Assembly (NCBI GenBank): GCA_036702865.1
Contig: DATNQD010000087.1
Span: forward strand, 1-64,000
From: Trichocoleus sp.
GTDB lineage: Bacteria > Cyanobacteriota > Cyanobacteriia > Elainellales > Elainellaceae
Reading direction: 5' to 3'
Length of the DNA: 64,000 nucleotides
This document shows positions 48,845 to 59,219 of the stretch, in pieces (within the stretch, counting starts at the first letter, position 1; the number at the start of each line of letters is the position of its first letter). The notes beneath the pieces are model-generated. The model was not told where the DNA came from. It made no database searches and saw only the letters and a program-made list of their open reading frames with translations. Made by a program: the position numbers and the translations under genes.

Positions 48845-49513
48845 ATGTTTACAAAGCAGGTAACTGACTCAAAAGTCTATCAGTGGTTTCAGGAGCGTCT
48901 GGAGATTCAAGCCCTGGCTGATGACATCACCAGTAAGTATGTACCGCCTCATGTCAACATCTTCTATTGCTTGGGTGGGATTACGCTTGTTTGCTTCTTG
49001 ATCCAGTTTGCGACTGGCTTCGCAATGACTTTTTACTATAAACCGACTGTCACGGAAGCGTTTCAATCCGTGCAGTATTTGATGACTGATGTCAACTTTG
49101 GCTGGCTGATTCGCTCCATCCACCGCTGGTCTGCCAGCATGATGGTGCTGATGATGATTCTGCACGTCTTCCGCGTTTACCTGACAGGCGGCTTCAAAAA
49201 GCCCCGCGAGTTGACCTGGGTGACGGGCGTGATTCTGGCTGTGATCACCGTTTCGTTTGGCGTAACTGGCTACTCGCTTCCCTGGGATCAGGTTGGCTAC
49301 TGGGCAGTCAAAATTGTTTCTGGTGTTCCTGAAGCAATTCCCGTTGTCGGTTCTTTGATGGTAGAACTGCTGCGAGGCGGTCAGAGTGTGGGTCAGGCAA
49401 CCCTAACCCGTTTCTATAGTCTTCACACCTTTGTTCTGCCCTGGCTGATTGCCGTATTCATGCTGGCGCACTTCCTGATGATTCGGAAGCAGGGTATTTC
49501 TGGTCCGTTGTAA
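48845..49513 (+). CDS. petB: Cytochrome b6
   Basis: PetB is the cytochrome b6 subunit of the b6f complex, carrying two b haems and covalent haem c(n) in the thylakoid membrane. The 222-residue protein begins in the usual way ([33 protein letters not shown]). The Cys near 42 is the covalent c(n) haem site. Four transmembrane helices carry the haem ligands, in [20 protein letters not shown] and [14 protein letters not shown]. The PEAIPVVG loop and RFYSLH are conserved. It is followed by petD after 145 bp, the normal cyanobacterial petBD operon. Confidence 0.98.
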
Positions 49514-49658
49514 TCTCCACTAGGAAGCTAGATTGTTGGGGTTCGATCGCCGCGATTCAGGTTTATCGCTTTGACCTATCGTTTGATGACCGAAATGCTG
49601 ACAGTTGCTGAACTTCCTGCTATTTTGACTTCAAAGACCCCAAGGAGAGCATTCAGTC

Positions 49659-50141
49659 ATGTCAATTTTGAAAAAACCGGATCTCGCTGATCCCGTGTTG
49701 CGTGAAAAGCTGAAGAAGGGCATGGGTCACAACTATTATGGTGAACCCGCTTGGCCCAACGACTTGCTGTATGTCTTCCCAGTTGTAATTCTGGGAACGA
49801 TCGCTTGCTGCGTCGCGCTTGCAGTTCTCGATCCAGCACTGGTTGGTGAGCCTGCAAATCCCTTTGCAACCCCGCTGGAAATTCTGCCGGAATGGTATCT
49901 GTTCCCCGCATTCCAGATCTTGCGCGTTGTCCCCAACAAACTGCTGGGAATTGCCCTACAAACTGCAATTCCACTGGGCTTGATGCTGATTCCCTTCATT
50001 GAGAGCGTCAACAAGTTCCAGAACCCCTTCCGTCGTCCCGTTGCAACCACGCTCTTCCTGTTCGGTACATTGGTGACGCTGTGGCTGGGTATTGGTGCAA
50101 CCTTCCCGATCGACAAATCCCTGACCCTGGGTTTGTTCTAA
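49659..50141 (+). CDS. petD: Cytochrome b6f complex subunit IV
   Basis: PetD completes the Q-cycle half of cytochrome b6f together with PetB. The 160-residue product matches the standard length and starts [20 protein letters not shown]. The central [13 protein letters not shown] carries the conserved PEWY motif that lines the plastoquinol-oxidation site. Three transmembrane helices are visible ([35 protein letters not shown] and the C-terminal [20 protein letters not shown]). The ATG at 49659 has AAGGAGAG just upstream. A structured terminator follows at 50162. Confidence 0.98.
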
Positions 50142-52283: not shown

Positions 52284-55200
52284 CTAGCGGTTCTGAAGTA
52301 GCTGTTCAACTCGATCGAGCAGTTCTGGCATAGGAATCGCAGGCGGCAGTATTTCAGTGGCAACCGTCTGCCAGATTGCTTCAAACTCTCGCATTTGCCC
52401 AGTATTGGTTCGAGAATGGGTTGGATGAGGATTCCAAACGAGAATCGGGGGTTTTGCGGGAAGCTGCTCAATTTGTTGAGCAATCGTCAGCAGCATCGCT
52501 TGCGGCTCAAAGGAATGAACACAGAACAGCAGCATGTCGAGATTTTGATGCTCAAGCTGTTGCCAGACCTCGCTCCAAGAAGAACTCACTGTACTTTGAT
52601 AGCCTGCCATTTGCAGGTATTGGGAAAGCGCCTGAAGTGCATGAGCAGGTTTGAATTCCGCAGTAGTAGGCTTGGCTTCCAATTGACCAAAATCTACGAT
52701 CGTTACACAAGGCTGCCAGTGAATTCCTGCTGCCATCCGAATAACTTGGAGCAGATCAGTAAGAACAGGGGTGCTGGTTTCACGCGTCTCGGAAGTTGTC
52801 TCTGCCAGACAGGGAAAGACTGTCAGTTCAGGAATTTGGTTTGCTGCCTGAGTAACTTCTACGTCTAACGTAATAATTGGCAAAGCAGTCAAAAATGGAT
52901 ACTGGCTCAAATGTTGCATATAGATCACCGGATCAGAGAGCAGATTATCCAGCAGCACCACATTTGGCTTCCAAACCCGTGCCAGCAAATCTGCCTGCTC
53001 TAAATCATCTACTTCCAGCACGCGACACTGATGCAGATGCAGCAAAGATGCGAGATCCTGAGCAAACGGCTGATCGATCGCTTGAAAGGCTGAGCGATTT
53101 TTTCCTTCATGTAGATGCAGAACTGTCAAGCTAGGCAGTGCACTCTCTGAAGGGTTCAGCGTCGAACTCACCAGACGGTTAAGACATCGTTCCAGCGCTT
53201 CCGACTGCATCGGTAGACTTAAAAACCCATTCGCGCCGTTCTGATATGCCAAATCTTTCTCAACGCGCATGGCTGTCATGACGACTGGAATATGGCGAGT
53301 TTCCGGGTCAGATTTTAGCAGCGTTAGCACATCCCAGCCTGACAACATCGGCAGAATTGGACTCAAAAACACAATGCCTGGCTGCAGACGTCGCACTTTT
53401 TCGAGTGCTTCAGTGCCTGATCGGGCAATCGCTACCCGGTGTCCTAAATGGGTCAACTCTTGCGTCAGGCTATCTACTACTTGAGGAGTTGCTTCAACTA
53501 CAATCGCCAAACGATTTTGGCTAGATGTGCCTGAAGTCTGCCTCGTCATGCCCAGAGAGTTTGCTCTGAAATTGGGGGACGATTGCGGCGGGCTAGGCGG
53601 CAGGAGCAGCGTAAATTCGCTTCCAACGCCTTCTTTAGAGGTAAATGTGACATCTCCCCCATGTAGCCTTGCCAAGCGTTGAGTCAGGACTAGCCCCAAG
53701 CCCGTACCTTCATAGCGGCGCGTCAGCGGATGTTCTAGCTGTTGAAACTTTTGAAAAATTAAGTGCTGTTTATCAGCCGGAATGCCAATTCCTTGATCCC
53801 AAACTGTAAAAGCAATCCAGCCCTCCCAGGCTTCCACACGCAGCCCGATCGCCCCTTCATCAGGCGTAAACTTGATTGCATTTGAGAGCAAATTGGTTAG
53901 CATCTGGCGCAGTCGGAGTTCATCAGCAACCAGGCTTTCCAGTCCTGGCTCAATCTCCAGATCGAAATGAACCTCTGTCTCGTCGTCCAGATTTGCCGTG
54001 CTGCCCTCAATCGTATGCAGTTGGCGCGCTTGTCCATAGGCACGGCTACAAACCATCTCGATCGATACTGGCTCTGGCAGCAAGTCAAGCTGTCCCGTTT
54101 CAATGCGGGTGAGATCGAGAATATTGTTCACGATCAAAATCAGATGACGACCGCTCTGGTGAATTAACTGAGCATAGCGAGCCTGGCGATCGTTGAGTTC
54201 ACCCAACGCCTGATCTTTCAAAAGGCTGGATAGCCCCAGCACTGCCGTTAGCGGTGTTTTAAGTTCATGGCTGATACAGGCGAGAAATTCATCTTTCAAT
54301 CGGTTTAGCTGAACTAAATCTGCATTTTTTGCCGCAAGTTCTTTCGCGACCTGCTGCGGTTCTGTAATATCCTGTGCCAGCACCAGCCAGAGAGATTCAG
54401 CCTGAGTCAGGTTGCGCCATTCTGGATCAGGGCTGAAACTCAGCGTCGCCAGCTTGAACTGATGAGAGAAATCAGACTCAATGCCCGCCACCGAGAACCG
54501 ATCGTCCCTGAGAGAATGAGCAACACCTCCCATCGGAATTTTGACAAACTGCCAGATCCGATCCTGTCCGCTTTTCATCGGGCAAAGACAAATGCAGGTA
54601 TCTGGAGCAGTACCAAGCCGACAGAGGTTCTCCGGGTAAGAATCGCTGGAAATTTGGCTGCCAGATGAGTTCCAGTCCTCCCACTGCGGATCGCTTAGAT
54701 GCAACTCTGGAGATGGAGTCTGCCGATGGCTAAATCTACCCAGATCGACTGCTTCTACTATTCCGTCGTACCATCTATCTGCAACTGCCGTTTCTAAAAT
54801 CGACGCGGCTTCTCGTCTCACCAAATTGGGGTCTTGCAGTTCGCCAACCTGCTGCCGCCATGCTAGATTCTGGGTAATAATTTGCCCGACTGCGGTTTGC
54901 AGCATGAGTGGAATGGGCAATCGTTCTAGCAAGTCAATTAAGGGGTCAAGTCCAGCAAGCGGATCGAGCGAAGGTTGCCGTCCATTCGGTAAGGAAGCCA
55001 GCGACTGCCAATGCAGCTTCTCCTGCACCTGAGCCCGGTTCATCAAGAATTGCAGCAGATGTAGCCGATCGACCAGTCCCACGCAATGCCCTTGCAGGTT
55101 AACTAGAACCCACTGCTGATGCTCAATTTGCAGTAGATAGGGCTGAACTTGATCAACCTTCCAATGAGCCGGGAGCATGATCAGCGGCTCTAGAAGCGGA

Positions 55201-55499
55201 GTTGCTTGAGAGAGCGCAAATTGGCGCAAGTGACGAATGCTCTGGTCAACATTTGTAGAGTCAGGATGAGCGATCGACGCAGCTTCAGAGGAGTCAGGTG
55301 GGTTCAGGGCAGGATGCAACGGCAAATAGAGCAAAAGTCGGCTGAGGCTTAAAAGACCGATCGGTTGCTGCCCTTCATCAACAATCACAACCTGCTCGCA
55401 GCCAAATTGCTGAAACAAGCGCCATAGTTCTGCCACGCAACCCGTCTCGACAAACGTCGGAATTGATGTGACAAATTCTCTAAGGCAAACAGTATTCAT
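52284..55499 (-). CDS. Hybrid histidine kinase with CBS, PAS-like and three receiver-like domains
   Basis: From ATG 55499 the protein has 1071 residues. Two CBS-like segments fill about 5-155 (VVIVDEGQQPIGLLSLSRLL and LVNLQGHCVGLVDRLHLLQF). A PAS-like stretch follows (LIDLLERLPIPLMLQTAVGQ, about 187-230), then HisKA with His411 in FLACISHELKTPLTAVLG. HATPase_c has NLLSNAIKF, DQGIGIP and GTGLGL. Three receiver-like domains follow. In the first, the phospho-acceptor position reads VFLSPILPM, with Ser713 in place of Asp. The second has NVVLLDNLL (Asp851), and the third reads MLLFCVHSF, again without Asp. It is divergent from kaiA across 373 bp and may link the clock to output or input, as CikA and SasA do elsewhere; that is inference. 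No phytochrome GAF or KaiB-like domain is visible. Confidence 0.85.
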   Translation of the reverse strand: MNTVCLREFVTSIPTFVETGCVAELWRLFQQFGCEQVVIVDEGQQPIGLLSLSRLLLYLPLHPALNPPDSSEAASIAHPDSTNVDQSIRHLRQFALSQATPLLEPLIMLPAHWKVDQVQPYLLQIEHQQWVLVNLQGHCVGLVDRLHLLQFLMNRAQVQEKLHWQSLASLPNGRQPSLDPLAGLDPLIDLLERLPIPLMLQTAVGQIITQNLAWRQQVGELQDPNLVRREAASILETAVADRWYDGIVEAVDLGRFSHRQTPSPELHLSDPQWEDWNSSGSQISSDSYPENLCRLGTAPDTCICLCPMKSGQDRIWQFVKIPMGGVAHSLRDDRFSVAGIESDFSHQFKLATLSFSPDPEWRNLTQAESLWLVLAQDITEPQQVAKELAAKNADLVQLNRLKDEFLACISHELKTPLTAVLGLSSLLKDQALGELNDRQARYAQLIHQSGRHLILIVNNILDLTRIETGQLDLLPEPVSIEMVCSRAYGQARQLHTIEGSTANLDDETEVHFDLEIEPGLESLVADELRLRQMLTNLLSNAIKFTPDEGAIGLRVEAWEGWIAFTVWDQGIGIPADKQHLIFQKFQQLEHPLTRRYEGTGLGLVLTQRLARLHGGDVTFTSKEGVGSEFTLLLPPSPPQSSPNFRANSLGMTRQTSGTSSQNRLAIVVEATPQVVDSLTQELTHLGHRVAIARSGTEALEKVRRLQPGIVFLSPILPMLSGWDVLTLLKSDPETRHIPVVMTAMRVEKDLAYQNGANGFLSLPMQSEALERCLNRLVSSTLNPSESALPSLTVLHLHEGKNRSAFQAIDQPFAQDLASLLHLHQCRVLEVDDLEQADLLARVWKPNVVLLDNLLSDPVIYMQHLSQYPFLTALPIITLDVEVTQAANQIPELTVFPCLAETTSETRETSTPVLTDLLQVIRMAAGIHWQPCVTIVDFGQLEAKPTTAEFKPAHALQALSQYLQMAGYQSTVSSSWSEVWQQLEHQNLDMLLFCVHSFEPQAMLLTIAQQIEQLPAKPPILVWNPHPTHSRTNTGQMREFEAIWQTVATEILPPAIPMPELLDRVEQLLQNR

Positions 55500-55872
55500 A
55501 GCGTCAGTGCCAGAGAACGATGACAACAGCAGAGCTTGAAGCAGCAGTCGATACTGGGTTTAATCGCAAATCCTCAGTCCAATCACTTGCTTGAAAATTG
55601 AAAGCAGGGTCTGTTTAAGGGCTGGAGCAGTCATCACCCCTGCAACTCAAGTTAAACTTGATGAAAACAGTCACAAGCTACAGCAAATCCTAAAAGTGGG
55701 TATCCTAGCTTAGATTAACTTGCCTCTTCTAATTATGAAGCAGAGAACCAGAACGAACGGAATTTTCAACTACAATGAATGTTAAGTATTCTAAGAACTA
55801 TTGATATTCGTACATACGTTACAAGATTGATTTCCTGTAATTCCAGTCCCAGTCTCATTTTTTCCTTTAGCC
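55500..55872. promoter_or_regulatory. Divergent promoter region between hybrid kinase and kaiA
   Basis: These 373 bp lie between oppositely oriented genes. TACAAT at 55771-55776 is a candidate -10 for kaiA, leaving about 90 bases of leader, but no matching -35 is seen. An in-frame stop at 55828-55830 limits how far upstream KaiA can begin. No RpaA or RpaB site could be assigned by eye. Confidence 0.4.
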
Positions 55873-56769
55873 TTGCGTTCTTCTTTATCGGTTTGTATTC
55901 TCACATCCTCAGATTTAGCTCAAACGCTCACCGTGTATTTGAGTGATGTTTTAGCGGCGGATGCATCGTTCCGCTATAAAGTCAATCAGTTTGACACAAA
56001 TGCTGACTTCCTGCTGTTTATTCAAACAAATCATCATATTGACTGCCTTATTCTGCAGGAGCACAGTCAATTACAGGATCTTTTAAACCAGCTGCAGCAG
56101 CAAGCATTATTTTTTCCAACGGTCATCTTCCAGACGTCAGAACCTACGGCAACAGTCTCTGGAGAAGATCTGCTTATCGCCAATTCGCACTTCTCATACC
56201 ATGGGGCTGTACTTTATTTTTTGCCTCGATCGCTTAATCAAATTGGGCTATGGATTGATCAAGCAATTAGCAAATTCATTCAGCTTACTCCAAGTTCTGC
56301 ATCCCTCAGTTCAAACAGGAGCACCACCAGTAATGAAGCGTTGCTTACCGAAAAATCCTTGATGGCGCAGCAGCTGCGATTGGCTCAGAAACTCAAAGAG
56401 CGTTTGGGCTATTTAGGTGTGTATTACAAACGCAATCCACAGAATTTTTTGCGCCATATGGCTCAGGCTCAGCGAGAAGAACTGCTGCGGCAATTAAAAG
56501 CAGATTATCGTGAAATTATCCTGGGTTATTTTCTAGATAGTGCCAACCTGAATGGAAAAATTGACAACTTTATTAACACCACTTTCTTTGCTGATGTGCC
56601 AGTTTATCAAATTGTAGAAATACATATGGAGTTGATGGATGAGTTTTCAAAGCAATTGAAATTAGAAGGACGAAGTGATGAAATTCTGTTAGATTATCGG
56701 CTAACTTTAATTGACACGATCTCTCATCTCTGTGAAATGTATCGTCGCTCAATTCCTAGAGAGTCTTAG
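55873..56769 (+). CDS. kaiA: Circadian clock protein KaiA
   Basis: KaiA stimulates KaiC autophosphorylation by binding its C-terminal tail. This is a full-length protein of 298 residues. The N-terminal pseudo-receiver domain spans about 1-135 and the C-terminal four-helix dimer domain about 175-298. The latter has LKERLGYLGVYYKRNP, the linker-helix stretch and EIHMELMDEFSKQLKLEGRS, closely matching the Synechococcus elongatus sequence as I remember it. It ends HLCEMYRRSIPRES, also canonical. The start is TTG 55873: no ATG or GTG is in frame before the stop at 55828, and the next codons align with the family N-terminus. The ribosome binding site is weak. kaiB follows after 143 bp. Confidence 0.96.
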   Translation: MRSSLSVCILTSSDLAQTLTVYLSDVLAADASFRYKVNQFDTNADFLLFIQTNHHIDCLILQEHSQLQDLLNQLQQQALFFPTVIFQTSEPTATVSGEDLLIANSHFSYHGAVLYFLPRSLNQIGLWIDQAISKFIQLTPSSASLSSNRSTTSNEALLTEKSLMAQQLRLAQKLKERLGYLGVYYKRNPQNFLRHMAQAQREELLRQLKADYREIILGYFLDSANLNGKIDNFINTTFFADVPVYQIVEIHMELMDEFSKQLKLEGRSDEILLDYRLTLIDTISHLCEMYRRSIPRES

Positions 56770-56912: not shown

Positions 56913-57230
56913 ATGAGCCCTCTCAAAAAAACTTACATCCTCAAGCTTTATGTAGCTGGAAATACGCCTAATTCAGTGCGGGCGCTAAAAACCTTGAACA
57001 ATATATTAGAAAAAGAGTTTCAAGGGGTCTATGCCTTAAAAGTTATTGATGTGCTCAAAAACCCTCAATTGGCAGAAGAAGACAAAATCCTGGCAACGCC
57101 AACTCTAGCAAAAATTCTACCGCCACCTGTCCGTAAAATTATTGGGGATCTGTCCGATCGAGAGCGTGTGCTGATTGGGCTAGACTTGCTGTATGAGGAA
57201 CTCCAGGAGGATGAGGCTGAAATAGAGTAA
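56913..57230 (+). CDS. kaiB: Circadian clock protein KaiB
   Basis: KaiB binds phosphorylated KaiC in its rare fold-switched thioredoxin-like form, sequesters KaiA and starts dephosphorylation. The 105 residues match the family nearly throughout ([60 protein letters not shown]). The acidic C-terminal tail is normal. The start ATG 56913 gives the classical MSPLKKTY N-terminus, though no clear Shine-Dalgarno is visible. The gene follows kaiA in the same direction. An unusually long gap of 426 bp separates it from kaiC. Confidence 0.98.
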
Positions 57231-57656: not shown

Positions 57657-59219
57657 ATGACCCAAACGAATCAAGATGGACAAACGAGTAGCCAAGTAAT
57701 GGTAGGGGTGCAAAAAATTCGTACTCTCATTGAAGGCTTTGATGATATTAGTCATGGTGGCTTACCCGTTGGTAGAACCACATTAATTAGCGGTACATCA
57801 GGTACCGGAAAAACCCTATTTGCCGTTCAATTCCTTTATTATGGCATCACCCAGTTTGATGAAGCGGGAATTTTTGTCACGTTTGAAGAATCCCCTGCTG
57901 ACATCATCAAAAACGCCTTTAGCTTTGGATGGGATCTCCAGAAGCTAATCAATGAAGGGAAACTTTTTATTTTGGATGCCTCACCTGACCCAGAAGGGCA
58001 AGATGTGATCGGCAATTTTGACCTCTCAGCCCTGATCGAACGCATCCAATATGCAATTCGTAAGTACAAAGCAAGGCGCGTTTCGATCGATTCTGTGACC
58101 GCAGTCTTTCAACAGTACGATGCAGCTTCTGTAGTGCGACGAGAGATTTTTCGCTTGGTTGCTCGTCTAAAACAAGTGGGTGCTACCACCATTATGACCA
58201 CGGAGCGGGTTGAAGAATATGGACCTGTTGCCCGCTTTGGTGTTGAGGAATTTGTTTCTGATAATGTGGTCATCGTCCGGAATGTCCTGGAGGGAGAGCG
58301 GCGACGACGAACCGTAGAAATTCTGAAGCTGCGCGGCACAACCCACATGAAGGGGGAGTACCCTTTTACCATCACTGATCAGGGCATTAATATCTTCCCG
58401 CTTGGCGCAATGCGGTTGACGCAGCGATCGTCCAATATCCGCGTTTCGTCTGGCGTCAAAACCCTCGACGAGATGTGCGGCGGCGGCTTCTTCAAAGACT
58501 CGATCATTCTGGCAACTGGCGCAACCGGAACCGGAAAAACGCTGCTAGTTAGCAAATTTCTACAAGATGCCTGCCGCATCAATGAACGGGCACTGTTGTT
58601 TGCTTACGAGGAGTCGCGTGCTCAGCTGTCGCGCAATGCTTATTCCTGGGGAATTGATTTTGAGGATCTGGAGCAGCAAGGGCTGCTTAAAATTATTTGT
58701 GCTTATCCTGAATCAGCAGGTTTGGAAGACCATCTCCAAATTATTAAGTCTGAGATTGCCGACTTTAAGCCCTCACGGATTGCGATCGATTCTCTTTCTG
58801 CGCTGGCGCGCGGAGTCAGCAATAATGCCTTTCGTCAGTTTGTGATTGGGGTGACAGGCTTTGCCAAGCAGGAAGAAATTACAGGCTTTTTCACAAACAC
58901 CACCGATCAATTCATGGGGTCAAACTCCATTACTGATTCTCATATCTCCACCATTACAGACACCATTTTGCTGCTGCAATATGTCGAGATTCGGGGTGAA
59001 ATGGCAAGGGCAATTAACGTGTTTAAGATGCGCGGTTCATGGCACGACAAAGGCATCCGCGAGTACGTTATCAGCGATCGAGGTCCAGATATCAAAGACT
59101 CGTTCCGCAACTTTGAGGGAATTATCAGTGGTTCTCCCACCCGAGTTGCGATCGATGAAAAGAACGAGCTGTCGCGCATTGTACGCGGGTTTCAGGAAAA
59201 GCCGGAAGCAGAGAAATAG
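57657..59219 (+). CDS. kaiC: Circadian clock ATPase/kinase KaiC
   Basis: KaiC is the hexameric double-RecA ATPase whose phosphorylation cycle keeps circadian time. The 520-residue protein aligns almost position for position with S. elongatus KaiC as I remember it. CI has Walker A GTSGTGKT at 46-53 and catalytic Glu77-Glu78. CII has GATGTGKT at 288-295, Glu318-Glu319, and the autophosphorylation sites Ser431 and Thr432 in SHISTITD, with Thr426 also present. The C-terminal A-loop and tail (SGSPTRVAID to RIVRGFQEK) for KaiA binding are conserved. Hence it should be a functional, KaiA-responsive KaiC1. The start ATG 57657 has AAGG upstream. Confidence 0.98.
   Translation: MTQTNQDGQTSSQVMVGVQKIRTLIEGFDDISHGGLPVGRTTLISGTSGTGKTLFAVQFLYYGITQFDEAGIFVTFEESPADIIKNAFSFGWDLQKLINEGKLFILDASPDPEGQDVIGNFDLSALIERIQYAIRKYKARRVSIDSVTAVFQQYDAASVVRREIFRLVARLKQVGATTIMTTERVEEYGPVARFGVEEFVSDNVVIVRNVLEGERRRRTVEILKLRGTTHMKGEYPFTITDQGINIFPLGAMRLTQRSSNIRVSSGVKTLDEMCGGGFFKDSIILATGATGTGKTLLVSKFLQDACRINERALLFAYEESRAQLSRNAYSWGIDFEDLEQQGLLKIICAYPESAGLEDHLQIIKSEIADFKPSRIAIDSLSALARGVSNNAFRQFVIGVTGFAKQEEITGFFTNTTDQFMGSNSITDSHISTITDTILLLQYVEIRGEMARAINVFKMRGSWHDKGIREYVISDRGPDIKDSFRNFEGIISGSPTRVAIDEKNELSRIVRGFQEKPEAEK

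Follow-up and report, generated by a model that had tools for sequence, protein, structure and literature searches.

A CikA-related hybrid histidine kinase with three pseudo-receiver domains adjoins kaiABC in many cyanobacteria and is a candidate clock component

The DNA analysed here (the window) is a stretch of 64,000 nucleotides from Trichocoleus sp. (GenBank assembly GCA_036702865.1, contig DATNQD010000087.1), and beside its kaiABC genes it encodes an apparently uncharacterised hybrid histidine kinase that is positionally tied to kaiA. Its kinase core is sister to that of CikA, its sensor end differs, and it carries several pseudo-receivers. We put at about 0.5 the probability that this kinase is a CikA-paralogous protein dedicated to the KaiABC clock and working by the mechanism proposed below. 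The cyanobacterial clock mechanism is known mostly from Synechococcus elongatus. In an S. elongatus-like genome that we checked (G035, recognised as such from its KaiA sequence), kaiA is not accompanied by such a kinase and the profile of the second receiver domain found no match, yet about two thirds of the sampled genomes with kaiA (81 of 121) have one. The kinase is probably a clock part missing from the model strain, and it bears on whether clocks outside that strain use an extra kinase. No paper describing it emerged when the open-access literature was searched by gene position or guessed locus tag. In Anabaena sp. PCC 7120, the kinase locus next to kaiA is presumably all2883. The kaiA gene of Anabaena is alr2884 (PMC8064755), and in the open-access literature searched, all2883 appeared only among predicted targets of CRP (PMC2633013).

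The genes of the locus and the region separating the kinase from kaiA are as follows.

52284..55499, minus strand: hybrid histidine kinase of 1071 aa, with its ATG at 55499, divergent from kaiA
55500..55872, no strand: intergenic region between the kinase and kaiA, 373 bp in the window
55873..56769, plus strand: kaiA (Pfam KaiA and KaiA_N)
56913..57230, plus strand: kaiB (NCBIfam circ_KaiB, above cut-off)
57657..59219, plus strand: kaiC (NCBIfam circ_KaiC, above cut-off)

This layout bears out the original prediction of a hybrid kinase adjoining kaiABC and transcribed divergently from kaiA (52284-55499, minus strand). Across 76 loci, the intergenic region had a median length of 340 bp. When the full 1071-aa protein was compared to Pfam, a weak CBS match, HisKA, HATPase_c and a single Response_reg were recovered. 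Also near the clock cluster, at 48845-50141, are two genes that by their appearance are petB and petD (cytochrome b6 and subunit IV); their position beside the kinase was not conserved among 45 named loci.

Among 40 relatives, the strongest homologue adjoined kaiA in most genomes, and a scan of named genomes yielded 387 relatives, with kaiA present at 68 of the best 80 loci and most of those without it stopping at a contig edge. In a phylum sample of 291 genomes, where the family was called by the receiver 2 profile (E < 1e-12), the kinase was present in 82 and kaiA in 121, and 81 genomes held both, giving a Fisher odds ratio of 342 that ignores the kinship between genomes. The two genes lay within 6 kb of each other in 72 of these 81 genomes, with the homologue at the matching place beside kaiA and divergent from it in all 72, and on separate contigs in the other 9. 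As a neighbour control, 45 named loci were taken with 9 kb on each side: kaiA, kaiB and kaiC were kept in 41 of them, and eight other genes of the window in 0-2. The survey of kai linkage by which the original prediction was to be judged thus came out in its favour, as the kinase is adjacent and divergent in 72/81 genomes and the other neighbours are not conserved. The arrangement recurs in cyanobacteria from many families.

Exceptions were nevertheless found. At four loci (L100, L125, L134 and L139) the flanks were complete, yet the kinase lay away from kaiA, and one genome (G282) harboured the kinase family with no kaiA match. The set of loci with the kinase off kaiA, or in G282, comprised L125, L134, L139, L182 and L100, together with L181, and its members belong to Microcoleus, Tychonema, one Leptolyngbya and genome G186, or to G282. 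Conversely, the family was missing from 40 of the 121 kaiA genomes, and therefore a KaiABC clock can do without the kinase. Coevolution of the individual kinase domains with KaiA gave partial correlations of up to 0.27 that were alike for every domain, with no KaiA-specific signal.

The catalytic core of the window kinase is intact, its HisKA and HATPase domains scoring far over the Pfam cut-offs.

54093..54296, minus strand: HisKA domain, residues 402-469, with phospho-acceptor His411 (Pfam)
53595..53924, minus strand: HATPase domain, residues 526-635, with intact N, G1 and G2 boxes (Pfam, alignment)

In the alignment of homologues, the acceptor position was His in 92 of 92 sequences, and the residues of the helix that follows it were alike in the kinase family and CikA and unlike in SasA. 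SasA, like CikA, acts on RpaA, and these residues therefore gave no pointer to the response-regulator partner of the kinase. Two homologues located beside kaiA (L057:5115-7877 and L058:5247-7253) had degenerate or unrecognisable ATP-binding boxes and are possible pseudokinases, judging by these boxes. Since both have lost them yet retain receiver 2, this domain probably matters apart from catalysis. In two further loci (L051:1841-4779 and L055:1471-4680) the kinase frame was in pieces with an intact kaiABC alongside, reflecting frameshifts, decay or assembly error.

The best non-self match of the kinase core in its own genome was CikA. We built a maximum likelihood tree of 56 kinase cores, comprising the kinases of two genomes and the family, with SasA as outgroup; the family formed a clade with a bootstrap of 86, CikA one with 100, and both together one with 100. 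The core thus fell outside the CikA clade, in a separate clade sister to it, and because of this sister relation the core phylogeny makes the kinase a paralogue of CikA rather than a clock kinase of unrelated origin. Searching the S. elongatus-like genome with the core retrieved as best match a 760-residue frame with the layout of CikA, and the best match of that frame in the genome of the window was a protein other than the kinase, the full-length CikA at C81:54223-56553 (43% identity). With this gene present and the family in its own clade, the idea that the kinase is the genome's own CikA was rejected. A CikA match, with E up to 1e-90, was found in 32 of the 40 relatives, and therefore most genomes hold both CikA and the kinase family. 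The kinase is not the genome's SasA either: SasA is encoded elsewhere (C59:96130, 551 bits against a family cut-off of 342), and the kinase locus scored 121.7 bits against the same family, below its cut-off. The proposal that the kinase is distinct from SasA and CikA therefore holds in that these are separate genes in the genome and has to be amended in that its core belongs to the sister group of CikA, which makes it a paralogue.

Downstream of the core, the following features were delimited.

53160..53516, minus strand: pseudo-receiver 1, residues 662-780, with Ser713 at the acceptor position (Pfam Response_reg)
52725..53132, minus strand: pseudo-receiver 2, residues 790-925, diagnostic of the family (AlphaFold2 fold, receiver profile match)
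52962..53027, minus strand: strand 2 to helix 2 of pseudo-receiver 2, CRVLEVDDLEQADLLARVWKPN (conservation)
52287..52712, minus strand: pseudo-receiver 3, residues 930-1071 (AlphaFold2 fold, KdpE structural match)

The three C-terminal receiver-like domains proposed originally were confirmed by Pfam for the first and by AlphaFold2 and profiles for the other two, and the motifs VFLSPILPM (S713), VVLLDN (D851) and MLLFCVHSF were found at the positions first assigned to them. Pfam did not recognise receivers 2 and 3 in the full-length protein. An AlphaFold2 model of residues 785-1071, based on 77 homologues, contained two complete receiver folds with a mean pLDDT of 87.5. Its structural matches were dominated by receiver 3, which superposed on the solved KdpE receiver with a Z of 14.7 and an rmsd of 2.0 over 114 residues, and hardly covered receiver 2; the sequence profile of the latter matched KdpE-type receivers with E about 1e-4. 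Profile comparison linked both domains to ordinary receivers with a probability of 96%, and Response_reg was matched by 61 of the 77 homologous tails.

Regarding phosphorylation chemistry, the acceptor position of receiver 1 was Asn in 84 of 90 sequences, Ser in 3 (the window included) and Asp in 3, with two gaps among the 92 homologues, and the conserved Lys of strand 5 was replaced by Leu in 81 of 92. In receiver 2 the acceptor-like position held Asp in 62 of 91 homologues and Glu, Gly, Asn, Ser or Arg in the rest; an acidic pocket is lacking in its first strand (LTVLHL). Missing from some homologues, receiver 3 has mostly Cys at the acceptor position and likewise lacks the acidic pocket. 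Because acceptor Asp, Lys or acidic pocket is missing across the family, we regard all three domains as pseudo-receivers; judged from the sequences, the missing acceptor Asp is a trait of the whole kinase family, and phosphorelay chemistry is not expected from this hybrid layout of kinase and receiver folds. Two of the three receivers had originally been described as lacking the acceptor Asp. This stands for receivers 1 and 3 and falls short in that all three are pseudo-receivers: the LLD of receiver 2 is no evidence of function because the acidic pocket is absent, and a working receiver 2 was rejected with the Asp kept in just 62/91 homologues.

Within receiver 2, conservation peaks on the surface from strand 2 to helix 2 (0.81-0.94 vs 0.38-0.63 for helices 1, 3, 4 and 5), and the same surface is also highly conserved in receiver 1. 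Strand 2 is an edge strand of the receiver fold. This pattern of conservation is consistent with a docking surface. CikA binds KaiB through the helix 1-strand 2-helix 2 surface of its pseudo-receiver, and quinones are bound by the pseudo-receivers of both CikA and KaiA (PMC12632262; PMC13421787). Direct kinship with the pseudo-receiver of CikA was considered for the domains described here and found unsupported, the profiles of receivers 1, 2 and 3 each being closer to generic receivers than to it. Receiver 3 gave a weak similarity to the KaiA N-terminal domain over ~73 columns (hhalign 87%, shuffles at most 0.9%), a domain that in the same kind of profile comparison scored 2% against generic receivers. 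That receiver 3 is a copy of the KaiA domain was not accepted, as this profile match is suggestive and KaiA_N was not among the 25 Pfam families listed for the homologous tails. In one family of genomes (f21, probably Nostocaceae), the KaiA frame measured 111-205 aa in 31 of 31 genomes, too short for a pseudo-receiver of its own, and all 31 retain the kinase and its pseudo-receivers.

The N-terminal part of the kinase holds the sensor end.

55005..55499, minus strand: CBS pair, residues 1-165 (AlphaFold2 model, structural match, Pfam CBS in homologues)
54360..54947, minus strand: PAS-like domain, residues 185-380 (AlphaFold2 secondary structure)
54582..54623, minus strand: cysteine motif C293-x8-C302-x-C304-x-C306 of the PAS-like domain (conservation in homologues)

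An AlphaFold2 model of residues 1-395 was obtained from an alignment of 82 homologues. Its structural matches covered chiefly the CBS pair (model residues 1-160; Z about 10 and rmsd 3-4 with solved CBS pairs) and barely the PAS-like part. Pfam CBS was matched by 63 of the 82 homologues and PAS_4 by 13, and no GAF domain was found among the Pfam families matched by them, nor in the model, which consists of a CBS pair and a PAS-like domain. As modelled, the N-terminal module is a CBS pair, with two CBS motifs arranged as a Bateman module, and the predicted combination of CBS and PAS in this kinase proved correct. The four cysteines C293, C302, C304 and C306 were kept in 86, 61, 79 and 74 of about 89 homologues, respectively, the motif as such being present in most homologues and missing from several. 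It is a possible metal or Fe-S site, and together with the CBS pair it suggests metabolic and redox input.

In the mechanism that we propose, metabolic or redox conditions would be read by the CBS pair, with a ligand of adenine-nucleotide type, and by the cysteine-rich PAS domain. A Kai protein would be the docking partner of the pseudo-receivers, most likely at the strand 2-helix 2 face, by which CikA engages fold-switched KaiB. Docking would decide whether the core phosphorylates or dephosphorylates a separate response regulator, for which RpaA is the prime candidate, and the kinase would in this way couple metabolism to clock phase alongside SasA and CikA. We infer KaiB docking, redox sensing and RpaA as target, and docking on KaiB is argued by analogy, because the receiver profiles are closer to generic receivers than to CikA's. 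Receiver 2 probably has a role beyond catalysis, as the two degenerate homologues indicate. A more ambitious picture, which we hold tentatively and find doubtful as a whole, would be that of a third clock kinase, a widespread CikA paralogue reading redox through the cysteine-cluster PAS and adenine nucleotides through the CBS pair and docking on Kai proteins by up to three pseudo-receivers; it would give the KaiABC clocks of most filamentous cyanobacteria, and of numerous others, an integration point that the S. elongatus model lacks, and would possibly replace the pseudo-receiver lost by the short KaiA of the probable Nostocaceae.

Gene order and domain content also admit other readings. Regulators and their targets are commonly arranged as divergent genes sharing an intergenic region, and some pseudo-receivers are known to inhibit or gate the kinase to which they belong (PMC12632262); the kinase could accordingly have a role in transcription only, phosphorylating a regulator of kai promoters in the shared region without Kai contact, its pseudo-receivers regulating it internally. 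A crude word count, however, revealed nothing strong by way of a common motif in the intergenic regions between the kinase and kaiA, and two kaiA-adjacent homologues look catalytically dead with receiver 2 kept. We consider this role unlikely, if a serious contender. The metabolic signals to which the CBS pair and the PAS-like domain point would also suit an output kinase/phosphatase for some other process (e.g. cell division or nitrogen metabolism), co-regulated with kaiA and neither setting nor reading the oscillator, and the persistence of the kinase in G282 without a kaiA match, and off kaiA in some lineages, would fit such a protein. Its near-perfect co-occurrence with kaiA (81 of the 82 genomes with the kinase) and its sister relation to CikA make this quite improbable.

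There is also the reading that no functional link exists and the kinase stays beside kaiA by ancestry, since vertical inheritance alone may hold neighbours together and the co-occurrence statistics ignore kinship. Against it, inheritance has left eight other window genes at hardly any of the control loci and kaiA, kaiB and kaiC at 41, and we strongly disfavour this explanation as very improbable. Our preferred reading is that the kinase serves the KaiABC clock specifically.

When compared to known systems, the family resembles SasA in being a histidine kinase tied to the KaiABC clock and differs from it in having a distant core and no KaiB-like N-terminal domain. With the N-terminal pseudo-receiver of KaiA it shares a receiver fold without phosphorylation site, the profile of receiver 3 resembling that domain, whereas it has no KaiA C-terminal domain. 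In Nostoc punctiforme, a diel-expression study of 2025 searched the GAF kinases for alternative inputs of CikA type (PMC12691664). The CikA-like kinases considered there are, like the present family, candidate extra CikA-type inputs of filamentous cyanobacteria; a GAF domain was required in that search, which would have missed the kinase family because the latter has none by Pfam. From CikA itself, the family is set apart by a CBS pair and a cysteine-rich PAS domain in place of an input region containing GAF, by three pseudo-receivers instead of one, and by adjoining kaiA and coexisting with a full-length CikA. In common with CikA, it has the sister kinase core, a receiver fold placed straight after the ATPase domain and mostly without the acceptor Asp, and an association with the clock.
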